The notes below the pieces were generated by a model, which had not been told where the DNA came from, ran no database searches, and saw only the letters and a list, made by a program, of their open reading frames with translations. Below are positions 487 to 9,894 of a stretch of 21,823 bases of DNA, in pieces. Within the stretch, counting starts at the first letter, position 1; every line of letters starts with the position of its first letter. A program made the position numbers and the translations under genes. Source of the stretch: a virus; the IMG/VR virus record IMGVR_UViG_3300030385_000138, positions 1 to 21,823 of that record. One strand, written 5' to 3'.

Positions 487-758
487 TTACTTCAACATTT
501 CCTTATCCCACTACTCAAGAGATAGCAACAATAACTAAAAATTGTTTAATGGGTCTTTATGTGGAAGTAAGAGATACTCGATACCCAAACTTTCCAAATA
601 ATAACTATATACCAATTGTTCCCGACATGCACCACTGGGATTTTGCACATCATCAATATAGAAGTGCCTATTCACAAGAAAATATATATGGAAAAACTTT
701 TACAGATGAGGAAATGTTAGAACGTATGGCTCAATCATTACAGGAGTGCGAAGGATGA
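468..758 (+). CDS. Small hypothetical phage protein
   Basis: A 96-codon frame that overlaps its upstream neighbour and ends with TGA at 756-758, overlapping the next gene's ATG at 755. Two starts are possible: ATG 468, which lacks a good SD, and ATG 483, which forms an ATGA overlap with the upstream stop but has its AGGAG (477-481) almost touching the start codon. The protein is rich in Tyr, Asn and His (for example DMHHWDFAHHQY) and has no recognised domain. Its tight coupling to both neighbours supports it being real. Function unknown. Confidence 0.6.
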   Translation: MDARRMITSTFPYPTTQEIATITKNCLMGLYVEVRDTRYPNFPNNNYIPIVPDMHHWDFAHHQYRSAYSQENIYGKTFTDEEMLERMAQSLQECEG

Positions 759-1237
759 AGATTACATTACAAAAATTTGAAACTGCTGGTGCAGAGTCGG
801 GAGTGCTACTTCCTGCTGATGAAACTTCAGCTAAGTTTGTTGGCAAATTAATTAAGAATGATGTAATTACTTCTGATTTTGTTAAGCCTAGAAATTATAG
901 ATTCCATAAGAAATGGTTTGCACTTGTTAAGTTTGCTTTTGACCATTGGAAACCTAGTTCTTTAGAAGATTCAAGATGGAAAGATGTTGTACCTGAAAAG
1001 TCTTTTGACCGATTCCGTAAAGACTTAATTATTTTGTGTGGAATGTTTAATGCTGTTTATCGTATTGATGGTTCTGTTCGGATTGAGGCAAAGTCAATAT
1101 CATTTGCAAAGATGGATGAAGAAGAATTTAATGAACTATGGAAACTTACAACCAAAGTTATTTTAGAACATGTTTTAACTAATTACACAAAAGATGATTT
1201 GGATAATACTGTTAAACAACTGGAGCAATTTTATTAA
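755..1237 (+). CDS. DUF1367 family protein
   Basis: A 160-aa protein. The start is ATG 755, with AGGAG at 742-746 and 8-nt spacing; a GTG at 746 is in frame but lies on the SD itself. The central segment RNYRFHKKWFALVKFAFDHW is the hallmark of the DUF1367 family, found in lambdoid and related phages near recombination genes. The biochemical role of DUF1367 is not established. The C-terminal half is helical and charged. The stop (TAA 1235-1237) overlaps the likely initiation region of the Ref-type nuclease gene that follows, so the two are probably translationally coupled. Confidence 0.75.
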   Translation: MKITLQKFETAGAESGVLLPADETSAKFVGKLIKNDVITSDFVKPRNYRFHKKWFALVKFAFDHWKPSSLEDSRWKDVVPEKSFDRFRKDLIILCGMFNAVYRIDGSVRIEAKSISFAKMDEEEFNELWKLTTKVILEHVLTNYTKDDLDNTVKQLEQFY

Positions 1238-1499
1238 TAAAAAAGAACGCAAATTTAGATTTGAGGCTTTAGCTGAATATGGATGTATTATTTGTATGCG
1301 ACCTGCTGAAATTCATCATTTAATTGGATATAAGTATTCTAGTCTTAGTAAGAAGGCTGACGATTCCAATACTATCCCTTTATGCGTAGAACACCATAGA
1401 GGTGGACAAGGAATCCATGCTCTCGGTATGAGGGCATGGGAGGAGGTCTACGGAACGCAGGAGTATTTGTTAGATAAGACTAATAAAGAGTTACTTTAA
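1194..1499 (+). CDS. Ref-like HNH nuclease (RecA-dependent nuclease family)
   Basis: Counted from ATG 1194, the protein has a CxxC at residues 31-34 (CIIC), HH at 41-42, a second CxxHH cluster at 64-68 (CVEHH) and a trailing GIHALG...YG block. This spacing fits the Ref family typified by phage P1 Ref, a zinc-containing HNH nuclease that cuts at RecA filaments. ATG 1194 has no SD and would overlap the previous gene by 44 nt. A GGAG at 1222-1225 lies 7 nt before an in-frame ATT at 1233, which overlaps the upstream TAA. The natural start may therefore be ATT 1233, giving about 88 aa and starting just before the conserved core. It probably acts in phage or host recombination with the ERF protein downstream. 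Confidence 0.75.
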   Translation: MIWIILLNNWSNFINKKERKFRFEALAEYGCIICMRPAEIHHLIGYKYSSLSKKADDSNTIPLCVEHHRGGQGIHALGMRAWEEVYGTQEYLLDKTNKELL

Positions 1500-1519
1500 A
1501 CGTAAAAAAGGCGTATAAT
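1491..1519 (+). promoter_or_regulatory. Candidate promoter before the small-gene cluster
   Basis: A perfect TATAAT at 1514-1519 sits in the short gap before a gene with a strong SD. The matching -35 position holds TTACTT (1491-1496), a poor match, so only the -10 box is convincing. Confidence 0.35.
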
Positions 1520-1555
1520 TATAGGGAACTTAAACCAAAAAAAGGAGATAAAAAA

Positions 1556-1753
1556 ATGAATACAGATACTAAAAGAAAATTAGATACTAAAATAAAATTA
1601 TTTGCTAAATTAGTAAGTGAAATTAATATATCAAAATATAAACAAAAAGAATATTTGAATATAATTGATGCAATTAAATTTGAAATATTTGATGCAAATG
1701 AAGCAGAGAAATTACCTAAATTTGGAGATTTATATGAGAAACCCAATGATTAA
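1556..1753 (+). CDS. Small hypothetical protein
   Basis: A 65-aa protein with an excellent SD (AAAGGAG, 1541-1547) before ATG 1556. It is Lys- and Ile-rich, predicted mostly helical, with an acidic C-terminal end (FGDLYEKPND). It has no recognisable domain, signal peptide or membrane segment. It is the first gene after a TATAAT box, and its 3' end overlaps the next gene by 20 nt, which suggests an operon. Function unknown. Confidence 0.7.
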   Translation: MNTDTKRKLDTKIKLFAKLVSEINISKYKQKEYLNIIDAIKFEIFDANEAEKLPKFGDLYEKPND

Positions 1754-1952
1754 ATTATTTGAGATAAGACACTCATTAAATGTATGGCTATGGCGTAAAG
1801 GTCTAGCCACTCGTAAACAAAGCTATCAACTTGACCAACCAATTCCTCACCAAAAATTCACCAAATCTTCACATAAAGGTAGATATATACTTGTTGGATT
1901 TTGTCTTGGACTTATTCCGTATGTTGTACACATGCAAGGGTGGTTAAGATGA
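1734..1952 (+). CDS. Small putative membrane protein
   Basis: The start is ATG 1734, with GGAG at 1724-1727 and 6-nt spacing; earlier in-frame ATGs lie inside the upstream gene and lack SDs. The 72-aa product has a very basic N-terminal half and one hydrophobic stretch near the C-terminus (YILVGFCLGLIPYVV) that could cross the inner membrane once. This arrangement is seen in many small phage proteins, such as holin-like, superinfection-exclusion or host-takeover peptides, but nothing ties it to one of these. The stop overlaps the next ATG (ATGA). Confidence 0.6.
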   Translation: MRNPMIKLFEIRHSLNVWLWRKGLATRKQSYQLDQPIPHQKFTKSSHKGRYILVGFCLGLIPYVVHMQGWLR

Positions 1953-2155
1953 AGGGTAGCAGAGAAGTCATAGAGATGGTAGAAGATGGTCAGATTGAAT
2001 TTAATGAAACCACTCGTTGCTATGAGCCTGTTGATTGGCAAGAACAACAAAGGCAGGACATGAAAGAAATTAAGAATGATGCTATCTACGAAGAAGAACG
2101 AGAGCGTAGAGCTGGATTGCTTGAAGCCTGTGGAATAAAGGAGATTAAAAAATGA
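1949..2155 (+). CDS. Small charged hypothetical protein
   Basis: A 68-aa protein starting at ATG 1949, which overlaps the upstream TGA (ATGA) and follows AAGGG at 1937-1940. It is highly charged, with an extended helical segment rich in Glu, Lys and Arg (around EEERERR), and resembles an adaptor or inhibitor peptide only in composition. Its stop overlaps the start of the next gene. No family recognised. Confidence 0.6.
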   Translation: MKGSREVIEMVEDGQIEFNETTRCYEPVDWQEQQRQDMKEIKNDAIYEEERERRAGLLEACGIKEIKK

Positions 2156-2349
2156 TAATTGTAGGTGATGATATTCACAAATTCCGTCTACTAACTCTAC
2201 GCAAGGGTTTAGAGATTGAAATAAAAGGCATGAAATTGTCTAGGGGTAGGTCGTGTTATACGATTATAAAGAGAGAGTTTGGATTTAAAGGTAACAAACA
2301 AAAGGTCTTAACTCAATTTAATAAAATATTAGCTAAACTGGGAGTATGA
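2152..2349 (+). CDS. Small basic hypothetical protein
   Basis: A 65-aa basic protein with a strong SD (AAGGAG, 2138-2143) and ATGA coupling to the gene before. The core LRKGLEIEIKGMKLSRGRSC followed by a helix looks like the short, highly basic proteins that recur in phage recombination regions, which would suit nucleic-acid binding. I do not know a functional name for it. It is followed directly by the HTH gene, 1 nt after the stop. Confidence 0.65.
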   Translation: MIIVGDDIHKFRLLTLRKGLEIEIKGMKLSRGRSCYTIIKREFGFKGNKQKVLTQFNKILAKLGV

Positions 2350-2350
2350 A

Positions 2351-2644
2351 ATGATAACTAATCAAAAAATAATAATAGAAAAATGGCTGTTAGATTATGG
2401 CTCAATTACAGGTAAACAGGCTATGGAAGAATGTGGTATTTATAGGTTGAGTTCTGTAATCCATGAGTTAAGAAAACGAGGCTTAGATATAACCACTAAG
2501 ACTTTGGTAGTTAAAAATAGATATGGTGGAAAAAGCCATGTGGCTCAATACACAATGAACAAAAATCCAAAGGTCAAAGGTTTTATTGCAGATTTTAATA
2601 ATATTGTTGAAAGAGCAATGAAAAGTTATAGGAGCGTGTCATGA
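2351..2644 (+). CDS. Helix-turn-helix domain protein (HTH_39-like)
   Basis: A 97-aa protein with GGAG at 2341-2344, 6 nt before ATG 2351. Residues 8-70 have the layout of a winged helix-turn-helix: a first helix, then GSITGKQAMEECGIYRLSS, then HELRKRG leading into a two-strand wing (VKNRYGGKSHVAQYTM). This matches small phage HTH proteins (HTH_39 type) that sit next to recombination genes. DNA binding is likely; the target is unknown. It may regulate this operon or assist recombination. Its stop overlaps the ERF start (ATGA). Confidence 0.65.
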   Translation: MITNQKIIIEKWLLDYGSITGKQAMEECGIYRLSSVIHELRKRGLDITTKTLVVKNRYGGKSHVAQYTMNKNPKVKGFIADFNNIVERAMKSYRSVS

Positions 2645-3252
2645 CTAAAACAATACATCAAGCATTATTTAACTTTGCTAATGAGATGGTAGTAGTCAAA
2701 AAGAATCAAAAGCATGGAGCATTTGGTGGTACTTTTTACACAGATGTAAATGAAATTCTTAGTACAATTAAACCTGTGTTGGAAAAGCTAGGTTTAGTAA
2801 TTATACAAACACCTCAAATTGACGATAGAGGTTCGTATCTTAATACTAAGATTTGTTTAAAAGATATTCCTTCGGAGTTTGTGGAAGCAAACATTAAGTT
2901 AATAGTTGACCCTAAAAGTCCTAAAGCAATGTGGAGTTTGGGGGGAGCAATTACTTACACTCGTAGGTATTCAATTGTAGCAATGCTTAATCTTGAATCA
3001 GTAGACGATGATTTTGTAGCTGGTACTAAGGATGCACAAAGCACAACTAAGAAGGCGTATAATAAACCTTTAACACCTAGTCAAGCTAGAAGCGTAGATG
3101 TAAATCTAATGAAACAAAAATTAGATATAGCAAAAGCTGAAGGCGATATTGAAACTGCTACTAATATTTATGAAGAAGCAGATGACAAGGGATTAATTCA
3201 AGTACAGGATTATCATGCTAGATTGTTTGAAAATCCAGTAGCTACATTATAA
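2641..3252 (+). CDS. erf: ERF family single-strand annealing protein
   Basis: A 203-aa protein, the usual size for the ERF family. The signature runs from residue 101 to 124: GGAITYTRRYSIVAML followed by the acidic DDD. ERF proteins (type member P22 Erf) form rings and anneal complementary single strands, allowing RecA-independent recombination and genome circularisation or repair. The C-terminal third is Gln/Lys/Ala-rich and variable, as in relatives. It starts at ATG 2641 with AGGAG at 2630-2634 and an ATGA overlap upstream. No partner exonuclease is visible in the window. It is followed by a 265-nt gap and then an SSB-like gene, a natural partner. Confidence 0.88.
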   Translation: MTKTIHQALFNFANEMVVVKKNQKHGAFGGTFYTDVNEILSTIKPVLEKLGLVIIQTPQIDDRGSYLNTKICLKDIPSEFVEANIKLIVDPKSPKAMWSLGGAITYTRRYSIVAMLNLESVDDDFVAGTKDAQSTTKKAYNKPLTPSQARSVDVNLMKQKLDIAKAEGDIETATNIYEEADDKGLIQVQDYHARLFENPVATL

Positions 3253-3451
3253 TGAGGCGTAACCGATACTATTTTATTTTATACTTCCTATTAACTATCG
3301 AATGAGTCGAGGTTATAGAAAAATGGTAAACGTGAATAAGTATCGTCAGGGTTGTAGGTTTACCTGTCCACAAACCTACACAAATTACTGTAACCCAATC
3401 GGTATTCGGGGTGTTTTTTAAGGTTATCATTCCTTATCTCCACGCCTCGTT
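3251..3451 (+). ncRNA. Candidate structured RNA between erf and the SSB-like gene
   Basis: The 265-nt gap 3253-3517 has no ORF above 40 codons but folds well by hand. A 10-bp closing helix pairs 3251-3260 with 3442-3451 (one G-U). Inside are a hairpin at 3292-3296/3311-3315 extended by 3298-3300/3308-3310, a 5-bp plus 8-bp stem (3349-3353/3392-3396 and 3354-3361/3372-3379, 10-nt loop), and TAAGG/CCTTA at 3419-3423/3432-3436. Segment 3262-3270 can pair with 3339-3345 (7 bp) or with 3398-3403 (6 bp), but not both, which hints at a switch. It could be a leader regulating the SSB-like gene, a free RNA, or a DNA-level element such as an origin. No known RNA class was recognised. After 3451 the gap holds only weak structure and the downstream SD (3506-3511). 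Confidence 0.45.
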
Positions 3452-3517
3452 AGGTTTTATGGGGGATTGGTTGCCCTAAGTAACCACTTATTTAATATCT
3501 AAAGCAAGGAGTAAAAA

Positions 3518-3859
3518 ATGACATACGAAACAAAACCAAATACTGCAGTAGTATATGTTGAAAATGGAATATTTAACAAAGCAGGTGTTGAAAACCTACA
3601 AGCACAAGGAAAACCTATAATCAAAGTTAAGATGAATGTAGATGGTAAAGATTTAGAAATACCTTTATGGTTTAAGATGGTATGGGATGAAGCAACAAAC
3701 CAGTCAACAAACCAGTTTTTTGTAACAAGTTCAGGTTCAAAAATGCTAAAAGGTAAAGTAGAGTTACCTTTTGTACCAACAAAGCGTGTCGAAGTGACAC
3801 AAGAAAGACCACAAGGTGATATTGGGAAAGATGAATTTGATGATGATATACCTTTTTAG
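3518..3859 (+). CDS. SSB-like single-stranded-DNA-binding protein
   Basis: A 113-aa protein with SD AAGGAG at 3506-3511. The last residues are acidic and end in DDDIPF, the conserved C-terminal tip by which bacterial SSB recruits partner enzymes. The body is predicted beta-rich (VDGKDLEIPLWFKMVW, KGKVELPFVP), compatible with an OB fold, though the fold itself cannot be proven by eye. It is shorter than E. coli SSB (178 aa), as is common for phage versions. Position after erf supports a role in coating ssDNA for annealing. The long structured leader upstream may control its synthesis. TAG stop; the next gene's SD overlaps the stop. Confidence 0.65.
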   Translation: MTYETKPNTAVVYVENGIFNKAGVENLQAQGKPIIKVKMNVDGKDLEIPLWFKMVWDEATNQSTNQFFVTSSGSKMLKGKVELPFVPTKRVEVTQERPQGDIGKDEFDDDIPF

Positions 3860-3872
3860 GAGTTAGATTATT

Positions 3873-4454
3873 ATGAACAAATCAATATTAGTTAAGCTAA
3901 GTGATATTAAGAACAACCCAGACAACCCTCGTGTACTTAAAGATGAAAAGTTAGCTAAATTGGTAGAGTCTATTCTAGACTTTCCTAAAATGCTTGAAAT
4001 ACGACCAATAGTTATTAATGATGACATGATGGTGCTTGGTGGTAATATGCGATTAAAAGCGTGCCAAGAAGCTGGGCTAAAAGAAGTGCCAGTTATTAAA
4101 GCTAGTGATTTTACTGAAGAAGAACAAGCAAAATTTATTATCAAAGATAACTTAGGCTCTGGTGAATGGGATTGGCAGATTCTTGCTGACAAATGGGATG
4201 CTGAAACATTAACAGGCTGGGGGGTAGATTTACCTTTCCCAGATGAAGATGTTGACTATTCAATTCTTGATGATGATTTAGAATCAGCACTAGACGCACT
4301 AGAGGGTGGCGTAAAAAAGGCAATTCAAATAGAGTTTGAACCGCATGACTATATTCAGGCTCTAGCAATGGTCAGAAAATATAGAGAGTCTGGCGCTTAT
4401 ATTGGGGGTATATTCTTACAGCACTTGATAGACCAACAGGGTGAGTTATCTTGA
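3873..4454 (+). CDS. ParB/Srx-fold domain protein (ParB-like nuclease)
   Basis: A 193-aa protein with AGGAG at 3858-3862, a slightly long 10 nt before ATG 3873. Its N-terminal ParB-like domain shows NPDNPR at residues 15-20, then IRPIVIND, and GGNMRLKA at 56-63, the conserved nucleotide-binding box. An acidic linker follows (residues about 122-145). The C-terminal segment (FEPHDYIQALAMVRKYRESG) resembles the tail of phage ParB-like proteins found beside DNA-modification genes. In such proteins the domain may bind or hydrolyse CTP, or act as a nuclease. It lacks the KorB-type HTH of plasmid ParB, so a partition role is unlikely. It overlaps the next gene (TTGA). Confidence 0.75.
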   Translation: MNKSILVKLSDIKNNPDNPRVLKDEKLAKLVESILDFPKMLEIRPIVINDDMMVLGGNMRLKACQEAGLKEVPVIKASDFTEEEQAKFIIKDNLGSGEWDWQILADKWDAETLTGWGVDLPFPDEDVDYSILDDDLESALDALEGGVKKAIQIEFEPHDYIQALAMVRKYRESGAYIGGIFLQHLIDQQGELS

Positions 4455-5131
4455 AAATTAAAAAGCTAGAGCATAACGGATTGATTTTGGCTTGTCGTGA
4501 AGGCACTTCAGATGAGAAAACATTTGACGAGGTTTTAGTAAGAAACGTATATGAAAAGCAATACTTTAAAATTAAACAGGGTGAGCATTGGATTGACTTA
4601 GGCGCTAACGTGGGCGCTTTTACTTTGAACGCTTTAAGCAAAGGGGCAACAGTTGACCTTTACGAACCAGACCCATTTAATTGTAAGATGATTGAGAAAA
4701 ATTTAAGGCTTAACGATTTTGACGCAAATATTCATCAGAAGGCGGTTGTGGCTAACGATTCAAAGAAGATGACTATGTATGTTGGTAATAATTTACAAGT
4801 GTGGCGAAACAGTCTTTACAAGGATTGGGGTAATCAAAAGTTCACGGTAGAATGCATCCACTTCTCAGAGGTTTTTAAAAATGAAACTGACTGCTGTAAG
4901 ATGGACATAGAAGGCGCAGAAATGGACATTTTAGAAGGTATGGACAAATTCCCAAGCAAGATGGTATTCGAGTGGAGTTTTGATATAGACGATAGTATTA
5001 CACGTTACCGTGAGTTGGTAAAAAAGATGAATGACCGTTATGATTATGTCAAATCTCCTAAATATAATGAAGGTTTTGTTGTTTGGCAGAAGTCTTGGTT
5101 TCCACCGTGTGCTAATGTTTACTGTTACTAA
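4451..5131 (+). CDS. FkbM family SAM-dependent methyltransferase
   Basis: A 226-aa protein starting at TTG 4451, overlapping the upstream stop (TTGA), with a GGTGAG SD 6 nt before. It shows the SAM-binding motif I WIDLGANVGAFTL (residues 47-59), the acidic LYEPDP loop (E72), and the FkbM-specific KMDIEGAE (150-157). FkbM enzymes usually add methyl groups to hydroxyls of sugars or small molecules; in a phage the substrate may be a modified base, a sugar on it, or a host glycan. No DNA-recognition domain is visible and there is no DPPY or PCQ motif, so it is not an ordinary N- or C5-base methylase. Its place between ParB-like and dioxygenase genes suggests a shared pathway. Confidence 0.85.
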   Translation: MKIKKLEHNGLILACREGTSDEKTFDEVLVRNVYEKQYFKIKQGEHWIDLGANVGAFTLNALSKGATVDLYEPDPFNCKMIEKNLRLNDFDANIHQKAVVANDSKKMTMYVGNNLQVWRNSLYKDWGNQKFTVECIHFSEVFKNETDCCKMDIEGAEMDILEGMDKFPSKMVFEWSFDIDDSITRYRELVKKMNDRYDYVKSPKYNEGFVVWQKSWFPPCANVYCY

Positions 5132-5909
5132 TTTAGAGCAAGTAAATCACAGCGTAAAAATCGGGGATGTTTGCGGAGATATAGAGCCAAACATTACAGA
5201 AGATACAATATTTTATTCTGACGGTGAGCCTATAGGATTTTATATAAATGACATACGCAAGCACTCAGAGAAATTAGCAAGTATGGTTGCTGTGGCAAAT
5301 AAAGAATTACGAAGTAAGAATGTACCGAAAAGCATAATGAAACGCTCAAGTGGTTTTCTTGATAAAGGTAAAGAGGTTTTACAGTATTCTACCATTATTG
5401 GCTCAATACCACCCAAGCCACACATGAGAAGGGCATACCCGACTAAATCAAGTGTTCATTCCGTGAATTCAGCAAGACCTTTTGTAAAGGCAATGATTAT
5501 GATTTGTAGGGAGAGTGAAGAATTGTTGAAGAGTATCTTGCCAGATGTTTATGAAAGGCAGATAAAAATCATAAACGATAACGTGCCTGATGAGTGGAAA
5601 TTTGGTAGACTATTCACAAGCAGCATTTCAAACTACAATATTTCAGCACCATTCCATAGAGATAACGCAAATTTAAAAGGTTGCGTAAACGTAATTATTA
5701 CAAAGAAGAATAATGCCAAGGGTGGAAATACAACAATACCCGACTATAATGCTACTGTTGATAGCTGTGATAATTCAATGCTAGTTTATCCTGCTTGGCG
5801 CAATGTACATGGTGTAACACCGATTATTACTTCACATGAAGGGGGTTATAGGAACAGTTTAATCTTTTATCCTTTAAAATCGTTTAAAATGAAATCTGAC
5901 AATACCTAA
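5115..5909 (+). CDS. Fe(II)/2-oxoglutarate-dependent dioxygenase, TET/JBP-like
   Basis: A 264-aa protein counted from ATG 5115, which overlaps the FkbM gene by 17 nt; no clear SD precedes it, so the start is uncertain. The double-stranded beta-helix core occupies the last third: HRDNAN (H181, D183, N184), a GGNTTIPDY strand pair at 203-211, the second metal ligand in NVHGVTP (H232), and R246 in GGYRNSLIFYP for 2-oxoglutarate binding. The H-x-D-x-x-N, GG...P-x-Y and HGVTP spacing is most like the TET/JBP nucleic-acid oxidases; a generic prolyl-hydroxylase-type enzyme remains possible. The N-terminal 165 residues are unassigned. It probably oxidises a base or an intermediate of base modification, just before the terminase genes. 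Confidence 0.75.
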   Translation: MFTVTNLEQVNHSVKIGDVCGDIEPNITEDTIFYSDGEPIGFYINDIRKHSEKLASMVAVANKELRSKNVPKSIMKRSSGFLDKGKEVLQYSTIIGSIPPKPHMRRAYPTKSSVHSVNSARPFVKAMIMICRESEELLKSILPDVYERQIKIINDNVPDEWKFGRLFTSSISNYNISAPFHRDNANLKGCVNVIITKKNNAKGGNTTIPDYNATVDSCDNSMLVYPAWRNVHGVTPIITSHEGGYRNSLIFYPLKSFKMKSDNT

Positions 5910-5924
5910 CAAAACCTAACAAAA

Positions 5925-6266
5925 ATGAAACTATCAAATGAACAATTCTGGGCAGGTCTTAGAGAAAGTGCAGGACTATATGCTAGGGCAGTGCGCCTTT
6001 ATAAAAAGGAATATGATGTTGATATAACAAGAATATCTGTAAGAGAGAGAGCATTAAAGGATGCTGACCAATTAAAAGATATTAGAGAACAAAACTTAGA
6101 TATTGCTGAAGAAGGCTTACACTCATTGATGAGAACAAAGAACGAAAACGTAAAACTAAGGGCAATAGAATTGTTCTTAAAACATCAGGGCGCAACTCGT
6201 GGCTGGGATGAAAAACAAAAATTAGAGATAACCGAGGATATGAATTTAACTATTAAATTTATTTAA
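5925..6266 (+). CDS. terS: Putative terminase small subunit
   Basis: A 113-aa, mostly helical protein directly before the large terminase; its TAA (6264-6266) touches the next ATG. The C-terminal part (ENVKLRAIELFLKHQGATRGW) resembles the end of many phage small terminase subunits, which bind the packaging site and load the large subunit onto DNA. The helix-turn-helix expected at the N-terminus is only weakly apparent (residues 15-50). No SD is seen before ATG 5925, where a short repeat CCTAACAAAA is present twice. The call rests on position and the C-terminal similarity. Confidence 0.65.
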   Translation: MKLSNEQFWAGLRESAGLYARAVRLYKKEYDVDITRISVRERALKDADQLKDIREQNLDIAEEGLHSLMRTKNENVKLRAIELFLKHQGATRGWDEKQKLEITEDMNLTIKFI

Positions 6267-7496
6267 ATGTCTGAAGTATCAGAAGTAGTGCCAGTAAAAG
6301 AAGAAGCGCTACTATTACCTAAAATATTCAAACCTCTTTTTACACCTTCTAGGTATAAAATCTATTACGGTGGCAGGGGTGGTGGTAAGTCTTGGAATTT
6401 TGCTATATCTTTATTGTCAATAGGAAGTAAAAAACCTATGCGAATATTGTGTACTCGTGAGATTCAAGGTTCTATCAAACAATCAGTACACAAACTACTG
6501 CATCAATGTATTAAACGAATGGGATTAGAACAATTCTATAGGGTTACTCGAGATGGTATTTATGGTATCAATGGCACTGAATTCTTATTTCTTGGACTTA
6601 AACATGACCCAAATCAAATCAAATCATTAGAAGGTATTGACATTTGCTGGTTAGAGGAAGCGCAGAAGATAACCTTTGAAAGTTATGAGTTGTTAATCCC
6701 AACCATTAGAAAGAAAGATTCAGAGATTTGGATTTCATTTAACCCTATATTGGACACAGACCCAACCTACCAACAATTTGTACTCAATAACACTAGGGAT
6801 AATTGCCAAATAGTTAAGGTTAATTTTTACGATAACCCATATTTCACTGATGAATTGAAAATTGAATTAGAGTATATGAAGGTGAACGACTATGATGAGT
6901 ATCTTCATGTCTGGGAAGGTGGTTGTAGAATATCAACGGATGCACAAATATTTAGGCATAAATTCACTGTTAAGGACTTTACCGCTCCAAGTGATGCAAC
7001 TTTTTATTATGGTTTGGATTGGGGATTTTCACAAGACCCTACAGTTGTGTTAAGAGCCCACATATATGATAATAGTCTTTATATTGATTATGAAGCTGGT
7101 GGTAGACAGGTAGAATTGGACAATACGCACAAACTAATAGATGAAATACCTTTAGCAAAACAGCATATAATAAGAGCAGATAGTGCTAGACCCGAATCCA
7201 TCAGCTTTGTAAGAAGGCAAGGTTACAGGATTGAATCAGTCCATAAATGGGGTGGTAGTATTGAAGATGGTATAGAATTTATACGAAGTTTTCGGATGGT
7301 TTATATACATTCACGTTGTTTGAAAACAGCAGAGGAGTTTGTTAAATATAGTTACAAGGTTGATAGGGTTACTGAAGATATATTGCCAACAATAGTTGAT
7401 TCTCATAATCACTATATTGATGCTTTACGTTATGCTTTACAACCAATGATTAAAAGAAAAGGGAAACCAAAATTAGCTAAAGTTATAGGAGTTTAG
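6267..7496 (+). CDS. terL: Terminase large subunit (PBSX/Terminase_3 type)
   Basis: A 409-aa packaging motor. The ATPase domain has Walker A GGRGGGKS (residues 35-42), Walker B ICWLEEA with catalytic E (126-132) and the coupling motif SFNP (157-160). The RNase H-like nuclease has the acidic residues D251 in YYGLDWGFSQDP, D305 in IRADSARPE, and D378/D385 in DSHNHYIDALRYAL. It cuts the DNA concatemer and pumps it through the portal. It starts immediately after the terS stop, so it is probably translationally coupled. All key motifs are present and the length is normal. It ends with TAG one base before the portal start. Confidence 0.95.
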   Translation: MSEVSEVVPVKEEALLLPKIFKPLFTPSRYKIYYGGRGGGKSWNFAISLLSIGSKKPMRILCTREIQGSIKQSVHKLLHQCIKRMGLEQFYRVTRDGIYGINGTEFLFLGLKHDPNQIKSLEGIDICWLEEAQKITFESYELLIPTIRKKDSEIWISFNPILDTDPTYQQFVLNNTRDNCQIVKVNFYDNPYFTDELKIELEYMKVNDYDEYLHVWEGGCRISTDAQIFRHKFTVKDFTAPSDATFYYGLDWGFSQDPTVVLRAHIYDNSLYIDYEAGGRQVELDNTHKLIDEIPLAKQHIIRADSARPESISFVRRQGYRIESVHKWGGSIEDGIEFIRSFRMVYIHSRCLKTAEEFVKYSYKVDRVTEDILPTIVDSHNHYIDALRYALQPMIKRKGKPKLAKVIGV

Positions 7497-7497
7497 A

Positions 7498-8808
7498 ATG
7501 GGAATTGAGAGTAAGCATCCTTTATACACAGAAACGGAGAGTAAATGGACAAGGGTCAGAGATTCTTTTTTAGGTTCAGATAGCATTAAAGACAAGGGTG
7601 AGGTTTACTTGCCAAAACTAAGCAGTCAAGATAAAGACCAATACGCATCTTATGTATTAAGAGCAATGTATGTAAACGTTATCAAGAATACAGTACAAGG
7701 ATTGGTAGGTGCTGTTATGCGAATAAACCCTGTGATAAATGCACCTGATAGAATATTAGAATTGACTGAAGATATTACGGGTACAGGCGTAAGCCTAAAA
7801 GATTTTATTTCTAATATGTTATCCGAGCAACTTCTAATGGGTAGACAAGGAATATTAATAGACCGAACAACAGATAGAGCCTATTTATCAGGATATACAA
7901 CAGAACAAATAACAAACTGGATGGAAGATGTTGTTGTTTTGAAAGAAACATTTGTATCTCATGATTCAAATGATGCTTATTCTATGACGTATGAGGTTCA
8001 GTATAGAGAATTAATGATTGATGAAGATGGTCATTATTTAGTAAGGATTTGGAGAGATAATAATGGATGGTCTGTTTGGAATGAGATTTACCCAACTAAG
8101 GTAGGACAATCATTAGATACGATACCATTTGTAGCTTTGAGTGGTAATGAATTAAACCTTAATCCAACACTACCACCTTTAATGTCATTAGTAGACACTA
8201 ACCTTTCAATGTATAGAACAAGTGCTGACTTGGAACATGGAAGGCATTTCACAGCGTTGCCGACTCCGTATGTAACTGGTATTGATGGGGATAGTGAACT
8301 GAAGATTGGTTCAGGCTCTGCTTGGATATTGCCTGACCCTTCTAGCAGAGCAGGGTATCTTGAATTTACTGGACAAGGGTTACAAGCATTAGAGAAAGCA
8401 GTAGAAGAAAAACGCTCTATCATGGCAGGTCTTGGTGCGAGTTTATTACAGAATCAAAAAAGTGGTGTTGAATCAGCAGAAGCACTACAACTTAGACAAA
8501 ACTCTGAAGCATCTGTATTGGTTGGTGCTGTATTGTCAGTTCAAGAGGGTATTGCGAAAGCGTTATCTGTAATGGCTGAATGGGAAGGCGTTAGTGGAGA
8601 TATTGACGTTTCCCTTAATACTGATTTCTCTGATGTCAAGATTAGTCCTGAAGATTTAACAGCATTAATGGGTGCGTGGCAGTCGGGTGCTATTAGCCAT
8701 GAAACATTCTTACACAACATGAAAAAAGGAGAAGTATTACCCGATGATGTTTCTGTGGAAGATGAAAGAGATAGAATAGACATGCAAAACCCTATGAACC
8801 TAGACTAA
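7498..8808 (+). CDS. Portal protein (DUF4055 family)
   Basis: A 436-aa protein after the terminase, with AGGAG about 9 nt upstream of ATG 7498. The N-terminus (W..VRDSFLGSDSIKDKGEVYLPKL), then AMYVNVIKNTVQGLVGAVMR and LLMGRQGILIDR match the DUF4055 family, which occupies the portal position in many siphoviruses. Residues about 300-350 (EKRSIMAGLGASLLQ...SAEALQLRQ) are the helical stem and wing seen in portals. It would form the dodecameric ring at one capsid vertex for DNA entry and tail joining. Size and place fit; the assignment is by family and order. Confidence 0.88.
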   Translation: MGIESKHPLYTETESKWTRVRDSFLGSDSIKDKGEVYLPKLSSQDKDQYASYVLRAMYVNVIKNTVQGLVGAVMRINPVINAPDRILELTEDITGTGVSLKDFISNMLSEQLLMGRQGILIDRTTDRAYLSGYTTEQITNWMEDVVVLKETFVSHDSNDAYSMTYEVQYRELMIDEDGHYLVRIWRDNNGWSVWNEIYPTKVGQSLDTIPFVALSGNELNLNPTLPPLMSLVDTNLSMYRTSADLEHGRHFTALPTPYVTGIDGDSELKIGSGSAWILPDPSSRAGYLEFTGQGLQALEKAVEEKRSIMAGLGASLLQNQKSGVESAEALQLRQNSEASVLVGAVLSVQEGIAKALSVMAEWEGVSGDIDVSLNTDFSDVKISPEDLTALMGAWQSGAISHETFLHNMKKGEVLPDDVSVEDERDRIDMQNPMNLD

Positions 8809-8820
8809 CCTCTCAAGGGT

Positions 8821-9894
8821 ATGAATGTCAACGAAAAAATACTTGATAAGATTAATGGTGATGCAATTAACATACAAAGGTATGAAGCAACTGTACAACG
8901 CCAAGTAATAAAACAGCTAAGAGATTTAGAAGCACAGATAGTTTCTGAACTTAAAGCATCTAATGTTATTACTGCTGTTAGAAAACAAACACAGAATAAA
9001 AGGCTTACAGCTTTACTCAAAAAAACAAGAGAAACAATAGCAGTAGCTTACAAAGACATTGCTAATTCACAATTAGTTATCTTGTCCGAAGTAGCAGAGT
9101 TATCTGAATTACAAACTGTTAATGCAATTAACAAATCAATTAAAGCTAATATTATCTCTCCAAGCATGAATAAGACAATGCTAAAAACTATTGCATCTGA
9201 TACTTTGATAGAGGGTGCTCCATCTAAAGTATGGTGGTCTAGGAGGGGGATTCAATTTCGAGCTAAGTTTGAAGATACCATTAGAATGGGAATGTTACAA
9301 GGTCAGACAACAGATAATATTGTGCGTACTTTGGTTGGAACACAAGTAAACAAATTTAAAGATGCAGCTTTACATGCACAGTTAAGAGGTGCAGAAGCAG
9401 TCGTAAGAACTTCCATACAGACAGTTGCCAATACTGCTAGATTAGATACTTATGCACAAAACTCAGATATTATTAAAGGCATAGAATGGTCAGCTACATT
9501 TGACAATAGAACTTCGGTTATATGTATGGAGTTAGATGGCTTGCAATGGGATTTAGACTATAACCCAATAGGACATGCTAAACCATTTCCGTCAGCTATA
9601 GCTCATTGGAATTGCAGAAGCACACAAGTACCTGTAACAAAAAGCTGGGAAGAATTAGGCTCAAAAGTTAAAGTAGAAGTGCCAGTAGGTACTCGTGCTA
9701 GTATGGATGGTCAGGTAGCAGGTGGTCAAAACTATCAACAATGGTTAGGCACTAAGTCTAAAGCCTTCCAACAAGAAGTGTTAGGTGTACAAAAACAAAA
9801 GCTATGGAAAGCTGGAAAGATTAGTTTTAGTGATTTAGTCAACCAGAGAGGACATCCATTAACACTTGAACAATTAAAAAGAAAAATAAAATAA
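8821..9894 (+). CDS. Head morphogenesis minor capsid protein (Mu gpF / SPP1 gp7-like)
   Basis: A 357-aa protein 12 nt after the portal gene; the SD-like AAGGG at 8815-8819 is unusually close to ATG 8821. The C-terminal domain holds the family block: WSATFDNRTSVICMELDG, then PFPSAIAHWNCRST with its conserved HWNCRS (around residues 260-267). The N-terminal two-thirds are helical. Members are minor head proteins bound near the portal that assist DNA ejection or head assembly. It is followed by a 101-nt gap with a promoter, separating it from the scaffold and capsid genes. Confidence 0.88.
   Translation: MNVNEKILDKINGDAINIQRYEATVQRQVIKQLRDLEAQIVSELKASNVITAVRKQTQNKRLTALLKKTRETIAVAYKDIANSQLVILSEVAELSELQTVNAINKSIKANIISPSMNKTMLKTIASDTLIEGAPSKVWWSRRGIQFRAKFEDTIRMGMLQGQTTDNIVRTLVGTQVNKFKDAALHAQLRGAEAVVRTSIQTVANTARLDTYAQNSDIIKGIEWSATFDNRTSVICMELDGLQWDLDYNPIGHAKPFPSAIAHWNCRSTQVPVTKSWEELGSKVKVEVPVGTRASMDGQVAGGQNYQQWLGTKSKAFQQEVLGVQKQKLWKAGKISFSDLVNQRGHPLTLEQLKRKIK

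Follow-up and report, generated by a model that had tools for sequence, protein, structure and literature searches.

A three-gene cassette in the record of an aquatic bacterial virus, encoding a ParB-like protein, an FkbM-family methyltransferase and a TET/JBP-type dioxygenase, probably carries out a post-replicative hypermodification of phage DNA, in which TET hydroxylation is followed by FkbM capping and is targeted by ParB. In the proposed pathway, the dioxygenase would place a hydroxyl on the 5-methyl group of a phage DNA pyrimidine; this base is most likely thymine, which would become 5-hydroxymethyl-dU. FkbM would then use SAM to cap the new hydroxyl, with 5-methoxymethyl-dU as the likely product (5-methoxymethyl-dC if the substrate is 5mC). 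Targeting is probably the task of the ParB-like protein: its N-terminal DNA-binding domain, which is changeable, would bring the oxygenase to sites on the DNA, and its constant C-terminal tail would contact that enzyme. The likely purpose of the modification is protection from host restriction enzymes. This pathway is the best explanation of the domain identities, catalytic residues, predicted fold, linkage and FkbM exchange described below, from which we infer the base, the product, the role of ParB and protection.

Gene content of the window

The window, meaning the whole stretch of DNA that was analysed, comprises the 21,823 bases of a virus record that is probably a fragment. The cassette contains the following features:

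3873..4454, + strand: ParB-like protein, 193 aa (PF02195, 31.9 bits)
4451..5131, + strand: FkbM-family SAM-dependent methyltransferase, 226 aa, TTG start (PF05050, phrog_28597, alignment, AlphaFold2 model)
4589..4621, + strand: FkbM SAM-binding motif WIDLGANVGAF, residues 47-57 (W47, D49, G51 and F57 invariant in 41 sequences)
4904..4921, + strand: FkbM signature DIEGAE, residues 152-157 (D152, I153, E154, G155 and E157 invariant in 41 sequences)
5115..5909, + strand: TET/JBP-type Fe(II)/2-oxoglutarate dioxygenase, 264 aa (PF12851, TET2 profile match, AlphaFold2 fold)
5655..5663, + strand: dioxygenase HxD iron-binding motif H181-R-D183 (invariant in 63 sequences; aligned with TET2 HRD)
5808..5810, + strand: dioxygenase distal iron-binding histidine H232 (invariant in 63 sequences)
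5850..5852, + strand: dioxygenase 2-oxoglutarate-binding arginine R246 (invariant in 63 sequences; aligned with the arginine of TET2 RISLVFY)

The three genes are real and intact, and domain searches together with the sequence bear out the coordinates, domains and overlaps given in the original prediction. The ParB and FkbM genes overlap by 4 nt (TTGA) at 4451-4454, and the FkbM and TET genes by 17 nt at 5115-5131. The TTG start of FkbM at 4451 is backed by the family alignment; for TET, the ORF caller placed the start at 5031, whereas the family alignment favours the ATG at 5115. The cassette had also been placed directly before terS. The large terminase was confirmed at 6267-7496 (PF04466, 142 bits), but the ORF between it and TET (5925-6266) has no family match and is terS by position only.

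Among the scanned ORFs of the 21.8-kb window, probably an incomplete record, no C5 methylase, glycosyltransferase, kinase or amino acid:DNA transferase (ADDT) was recognised and no ParA was seen; the window contains no tRNA or Rfam RNA. Upstream of the cassette, positions 746-3252 hold a lambdoid-style recombination block with a NinB/Orf-like recombination mediator, a DUF968/HNH-type nuclease and an ERF single-strand annealing protein. It is followed by a 265-bp non-coding gap (3253-3517) whose ends pair (GAGGCGT/ACGCCTC) and which is predicted to form a closed multi-branch fold (-59.8 kcal/mol, z -1.8). Rfam and phage DNA searches gave no match to this gap, which is possibly a small RNA or regulatory element.

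The three proteins

The dioxygenase matches PF12851 (Tet_JBP) with 36.3 bits, barely over the cut-off of 34.9, and for this reason its assignment was tested further. It matches phrog_6059 with 192 bits, and the profile of its family matches human TET2 (E = 3e-7), with HRD on HRD and the Arg-bearing C-terminal strand aligned. The AlphaFold2 model (mean pLDDT 92.6) has TET2, CcTet, NgTET1 and CMD1 as best fold matches; rows from annotated phage records were left out of the input of the AlphaFold2 runs. The iron ligands HxD...H and the 2-oxoglutarate-binding Arg are present, H181, D183, H232 and R246 being conserved without exception in the 63-sequence alignment, and profile and fold fit TET/JBP over generic 2-oxoglutarate oxygenases. 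Sequence and model thus identify the enzyme as a TET/JBP protein, as originally predicted, and its active site is intact; it is the proposed base hydroxylase. Public labels for this family can mislead. phrog_6059 is named 'queuine tRNA-ribosyltransferase', a name also borne by mycobacteriophage TET records, and in phage MED4-184 (L127, NC_020847.1, 15790-17914) the TET gene carries this label and the ParB-like gene is mislabelled 'DNA methylase'. A true DNA methylase at the MED4-184 cassette was considered and rejected: the gene encodes a ParB-like protein and PF00145 is absent from MED4-184.

The ParB-like protein contains the ParB N-terminal domain of partition proteins (PF02195, ParB_N, cut-off 26.3), in agreement with the predicted ParB fold. 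This ParB/Srx domain spans approximately residues 7-93 and is followed by a C-terminal tail (approximately 126-190) typical of the cassette. The N-terminal domain occurs in at least two forms. When the protein is compared with relatives that carry a different ParB domain, the N-domains are 25-30% identical and the tails 46-52% across most. A search of 50,697 phage records with the tail from locus L046 matched only five records, all of MED4-184 type and all with the cassette. With its changing N-domain and constant tail, the protein may serve as a targeting subunit and dock on the oxygenase.

The methyltransferase has a PF05050 domain (59 bits, cut-off 22.7) with the SAM motif and the D-I/V-E-G signature, and matches phrog_28597 with 185 bits. 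D49/G51, E72, D152-I-E-G155 and E157 are invariant in the 41-sequence alignment, which upholds the FkbM-type methylase of the original prediction. The AlphaFold2 model (pLDDT 92.9) shows a Rossmann methyltransferase fold. Its distant matches, RNA methyltransferases among others, leave the substrate undecided. A conventional base methylase was also considered and rejected: the protein has no DPPY-type motif and the family no invariant cysteine. A scan of contigs from one genome per bacterial and archaeal species gave no host link; the loci it returned hold only distant generic FkbM genes, with identities that do not exceed 40% and cover just a portion of the protein. The subfamily thus appears to be phage-restricted.

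The usual substrates of FkbM enzymes are small molecules and sugars or glycans, and we know of no FkbM family member with DNA as an established substrate. We propose that the window FkbM is an O-methyl tailoring enzyme. A literature search gave no relevant description of FkbM in phage DNA modification, although earlier mention in the core hypermodification papers is possible. Giant viruses also have FkbM-domain genes; no methylation was assignable to these genes in a SMRT study that was not aimed at such bases (PMC7253447).

Linkage of FkbM to TET

Linkage was assessed in 80 IMG/VR loci retrieved with the window FkbM sequence, of which approximately 40 sequences are left at 93% identity. A TET gene adjoins FkbM in all 80 viral loci, in the order ParB-FkbM-TET in 78, and the junctions between the three genes mostly touch or overlap. 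As a control, TET was found in none of 80 distant bacterial or archaeal FkbM loci (flanks of up to 6 kb), whereas the same profile finds 69 of 69 viral ones. FkbM genes not linked to TET exist in some other phages (Dorin, ctIqW946), and the linkage is therefore peculiar to this subfamily rather than to FkbM generally. ParB-FkbM-TET is a conserved and widespread cassette of phages from environmental samples, and the original prediction, which was to fall if homologues of the three genes never co-occurred, withstands this comparison.

An exchangeable slot next to TET

In TET loci without FkbM, ParB is kept upstream and the slot between the two genes holds a TET-associated glycosyltransferase (TAGT), putative glycosyltransferases or a kinase and ADDT operon, or is empty. 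The TAGT was found in locus L009 (PF20691, 59.5 bits). In nine loci a glutamine amidotransferase (GATase) stands with a P-loop kinase and an ADDT (PF18724, 67.3 bits), and a GNAT is present in some of these nine as well. Putative glycosyltransferases without a Pfam match fill the slot in 13 loci and in L010, L014, L050 and L051. The family in the 13 loci, GTx (L019, L031, L034, L037 and nine other loci), is conserved and has a QRNSAL...DDF motif, around which it resembles TAGT; the L019 member has no significant Pfam or PHROG match. Since profile comparison with TAGT gives just 7.6% probability, GTx is called only a putative glycosyltransferase.

The closest view of the exchange comes from loci L046 and L045, whose ParB proteins are 96% and TET proteins 93% identical and whose flanking DNA is 84-91% identical. 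Homology of the DNA breaks off at the end of ParB and returns at the start of TET. Between these points L046 has FkbM (approximately 690 bp), whereas L045 has kinase-GNAT-GATase-ADDT (approximately 2.6 kb). Across the TET tree, FkbM switches between present and absent approximately 10 times, at least five of the changes being forced by supported branches, with bootstrap not fully settled. The L045 insert (2942-5534) is in itself a four-gene tailoring cassette; judging by its acetyltransferase and amidotransferase, the cap may be of an amino-acid type that is N-acetylated or amidated.

A second TET lineage shows the same alternation. Pelagibacter phage HTVC112P has ParB, TET and FkbM; its TET is annotated DnaJ/SNF2 but matches PF12851 with 103 bits and is approximately 25% identical to the window TET. 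In 25 of 36 IMG/VR loci of this lineage FkbM lies directly downstream of TET, in the order ParB-TET-FkbM. Four loci without FkbM were read in detail: L246 has a TAGT (80 bits), L249 an ADDT (87.8 bits) and a kinase, and L250 and L253 a TAGT-like gene with a phosphotransferase-like gene, the TAGT-like gene of L250 scoring 25.9 bits, slightly under the cut-off of 27.5. Two of these loci have further features. The ADDT domain of L249 is the C-terminal part of a 620-aa protein (7144-9003) adjoining the P-loop kinase and TET; with an unassigned N-terminal half, the protein is possibly a fusion of amino-acid supply and transfer. In L250 (6921-9103), TET is followed by the TAGT-like glycosyltransferase, a HAD/phosphotransferase-like protein and a nucleotidyltransferase-looking protein, a set that possibly gives the base a cap that is phosphorylated or activated by a nucleotide.

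Because FkbM swaps with TAGT, glycosyltransferases and kinase plus ADDT in one slot, it is most likely a tailoring enzyme for the TET product. The alternation of FkbM, TAGT and ADDT/kinase in two TET lineages and two gene orders is the main argument that FkbM likewise decorates a hydroxymethyl base. The exchange suggests the same pathway step, not the same chemical atom. Co-occurrence and exact slot exchange thus lend good support to the module first proposed, in which the oxygenase hydroxylates a base and FkbM methylates the hydroxyl.

Substrate base and order of reactions

Thymine is the likely substrate, because a C5-methylase is mostly absent and because near-identical TETs lie beside ADDT/kinase operons. 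Thymine already has its methyl group and needs no prior methylation, and ADDT and kinase partners act on 5-hydroxymethyluracil in the thymidine pathway. In addition, the YQH histidine of TET2, which we take to be the cytosine-contacting residue, aligns with Leu254 of the window TET. In phage Tonitrus, ParB, TET, aGPT-PPlase2 and a 5-hmU kinase have been read as thymidine hypermodification (PMC11955845).

The same cassette might instead act on cytosine that a C5-methylase of phage or host has already converted to 5-methylcytosine, with TET producing 5hmC and FkbM 5-methoxymethyl-dC. Characterised phage TET systems do act on cytosine together with C5-methylases and glycosyltransferases (PMC12730594), and PF00145 occurs in 7 of the 46 related records, five of which also carry FkbM. 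It is absent from the other 39, however, and from 12 of the 13 records that carry FkbM and reach 30 kb or more, among them the isolate genomes MED4-184 and HTVC112P. The near-identical TETs (93-96%) that serve thymidine-pathway ADDT/kinase operons likewise count against cytosine, which we regard as unlikely for the cassette as a whole; a cytosine substrate is possible in some relatives, particularly the C5-methylase-bearing minority. With thymine as substrate, the earlier worry about a missing C5-methylase partner probably dissolves, as thymine is pre-methylated and most related genomes have no PF00145. Other partners could lie outside the window, which is probably a fragment.

It is very improbable that FkbM acts before TET, as a methylase that supplies TET with 5mC or some other methylated base. 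FkbM is immediately upstream of TET in most loci, and several of its distant fold matches are RNA uracil-C5 methyltransferases, but these matches are generic (TM approximately 0.5) and the DPPY-type motif and invariant cysteine discussed above are missing. Moreover, TAGT, kinase and ADDT, the alternatives in the slot, act after hydroxylation, and in several TET loci the slot is empty. Equally slim are the chances that FkbM works off DNA, methylating a virion sugar, protein or host metabolite and being merely co-transcribed: typical FkbM substrates and the TET-unlinked genes of Dorin and ctIqW946 speak for this, but the invariable linkage with overlapping genes, the exact swap with DNA-tailoring genes and the occurrence of FkbM, in two gene orders, beside TETs of two divergent lineages speak against it.

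TET-type hypermodifications described so far end, to our knowledge, in sugars or amino-acid-derived groups. A methyl cap would be a very small block, and the resulting base would shield its free hydroxyl against recognition or additional tailoring. That FkbM, glycosyltransferase and kinase-ADDT operons replace one another exactly in nearly identical phages suggests an arms race waged through swapping of the final tailoring step. The unassigned PHROG family 28597 gains a suggested function from the cassette, and the cultured phages that carry the cassette (Prochlorococcus phage MED4-184, Pelagibacter phage HTVC112P) make the model directly testable. There is about an even chance for the fullest form of the model, in which TET and the first DNA-acting FkbM make a new base, 5-methoxymethyl-2'-deoxyuridine, as one option of an exchangeable slot through which near-identical phages vary the cap (methyl, sugar or amino acid) placed on one and the same base. 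For the predicted methyl-capped DNA base no description was found; related TET-based hypermodification modules are already known.

Comparison with known systems

Among FkbM methyltransferases such as PDB 2py6, the window protein shares the domain and signature residues (profile match 3.6e-5), but differs in being apparently phage-restricted and in having DNA as its proposed substrate.

In kinetoplastid base J (JBP1/2 and a glucosyltransferase), a TET/JBP oxygenase also acts on thymine in DNA and the hydroxyl is then capped (PMC12730594). There the cap is glucose and the organism a eukaryote, whereas the cap in the window is predicted to be methyl and the organism is a phage. The phage system of TET, C5-methylase and glycosyltransferase is similar in that TET hydroxylates a methylpyrimidine and a tailoring enzyme decorates the hydroxyl (Burke et al. 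2021, as reviewed in PMC12730594), and one relative of the window carries a TAGT in this slot. In contrast, the window (probably incomplete) and most relatives lack the phage-encoded C5-cytosine methylase of such cytosine hypermodification, and the tailoring enzyme of the window is a methyltransferase.

The thymidine modules of the actinobacteriophages Tonitrus, CloverMinnie and Nigel resemble the window in having TET at the genome start near the terminase, and in Tonitrus and CloverMinnie an annotated ParB adjoins or is near TET. Their TETs are approximately 27-31% identical to the window TET and have the same catalytic residues. Kinase genes follow TET in these modules, joined in Tonitrus by aGPT-PPlase2 (PMC11955845), and a ParB tail of the window type was not found in the three modules. 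The window shares with TET-based thymidine modules a TET gene that adjoins a ParB-like gene and is near the terminase. It differs in the tailoring step: actinobacteriophages use a kinase and a transferase, whereas in the window, where no 5-hmU kinase or ADDT/aGPT-PPlase was recognised among the scanned ORFs, FkbM fills the slot. The window cassette is therefore a variant that works like the kinase/ADDT type rather than a member of it.
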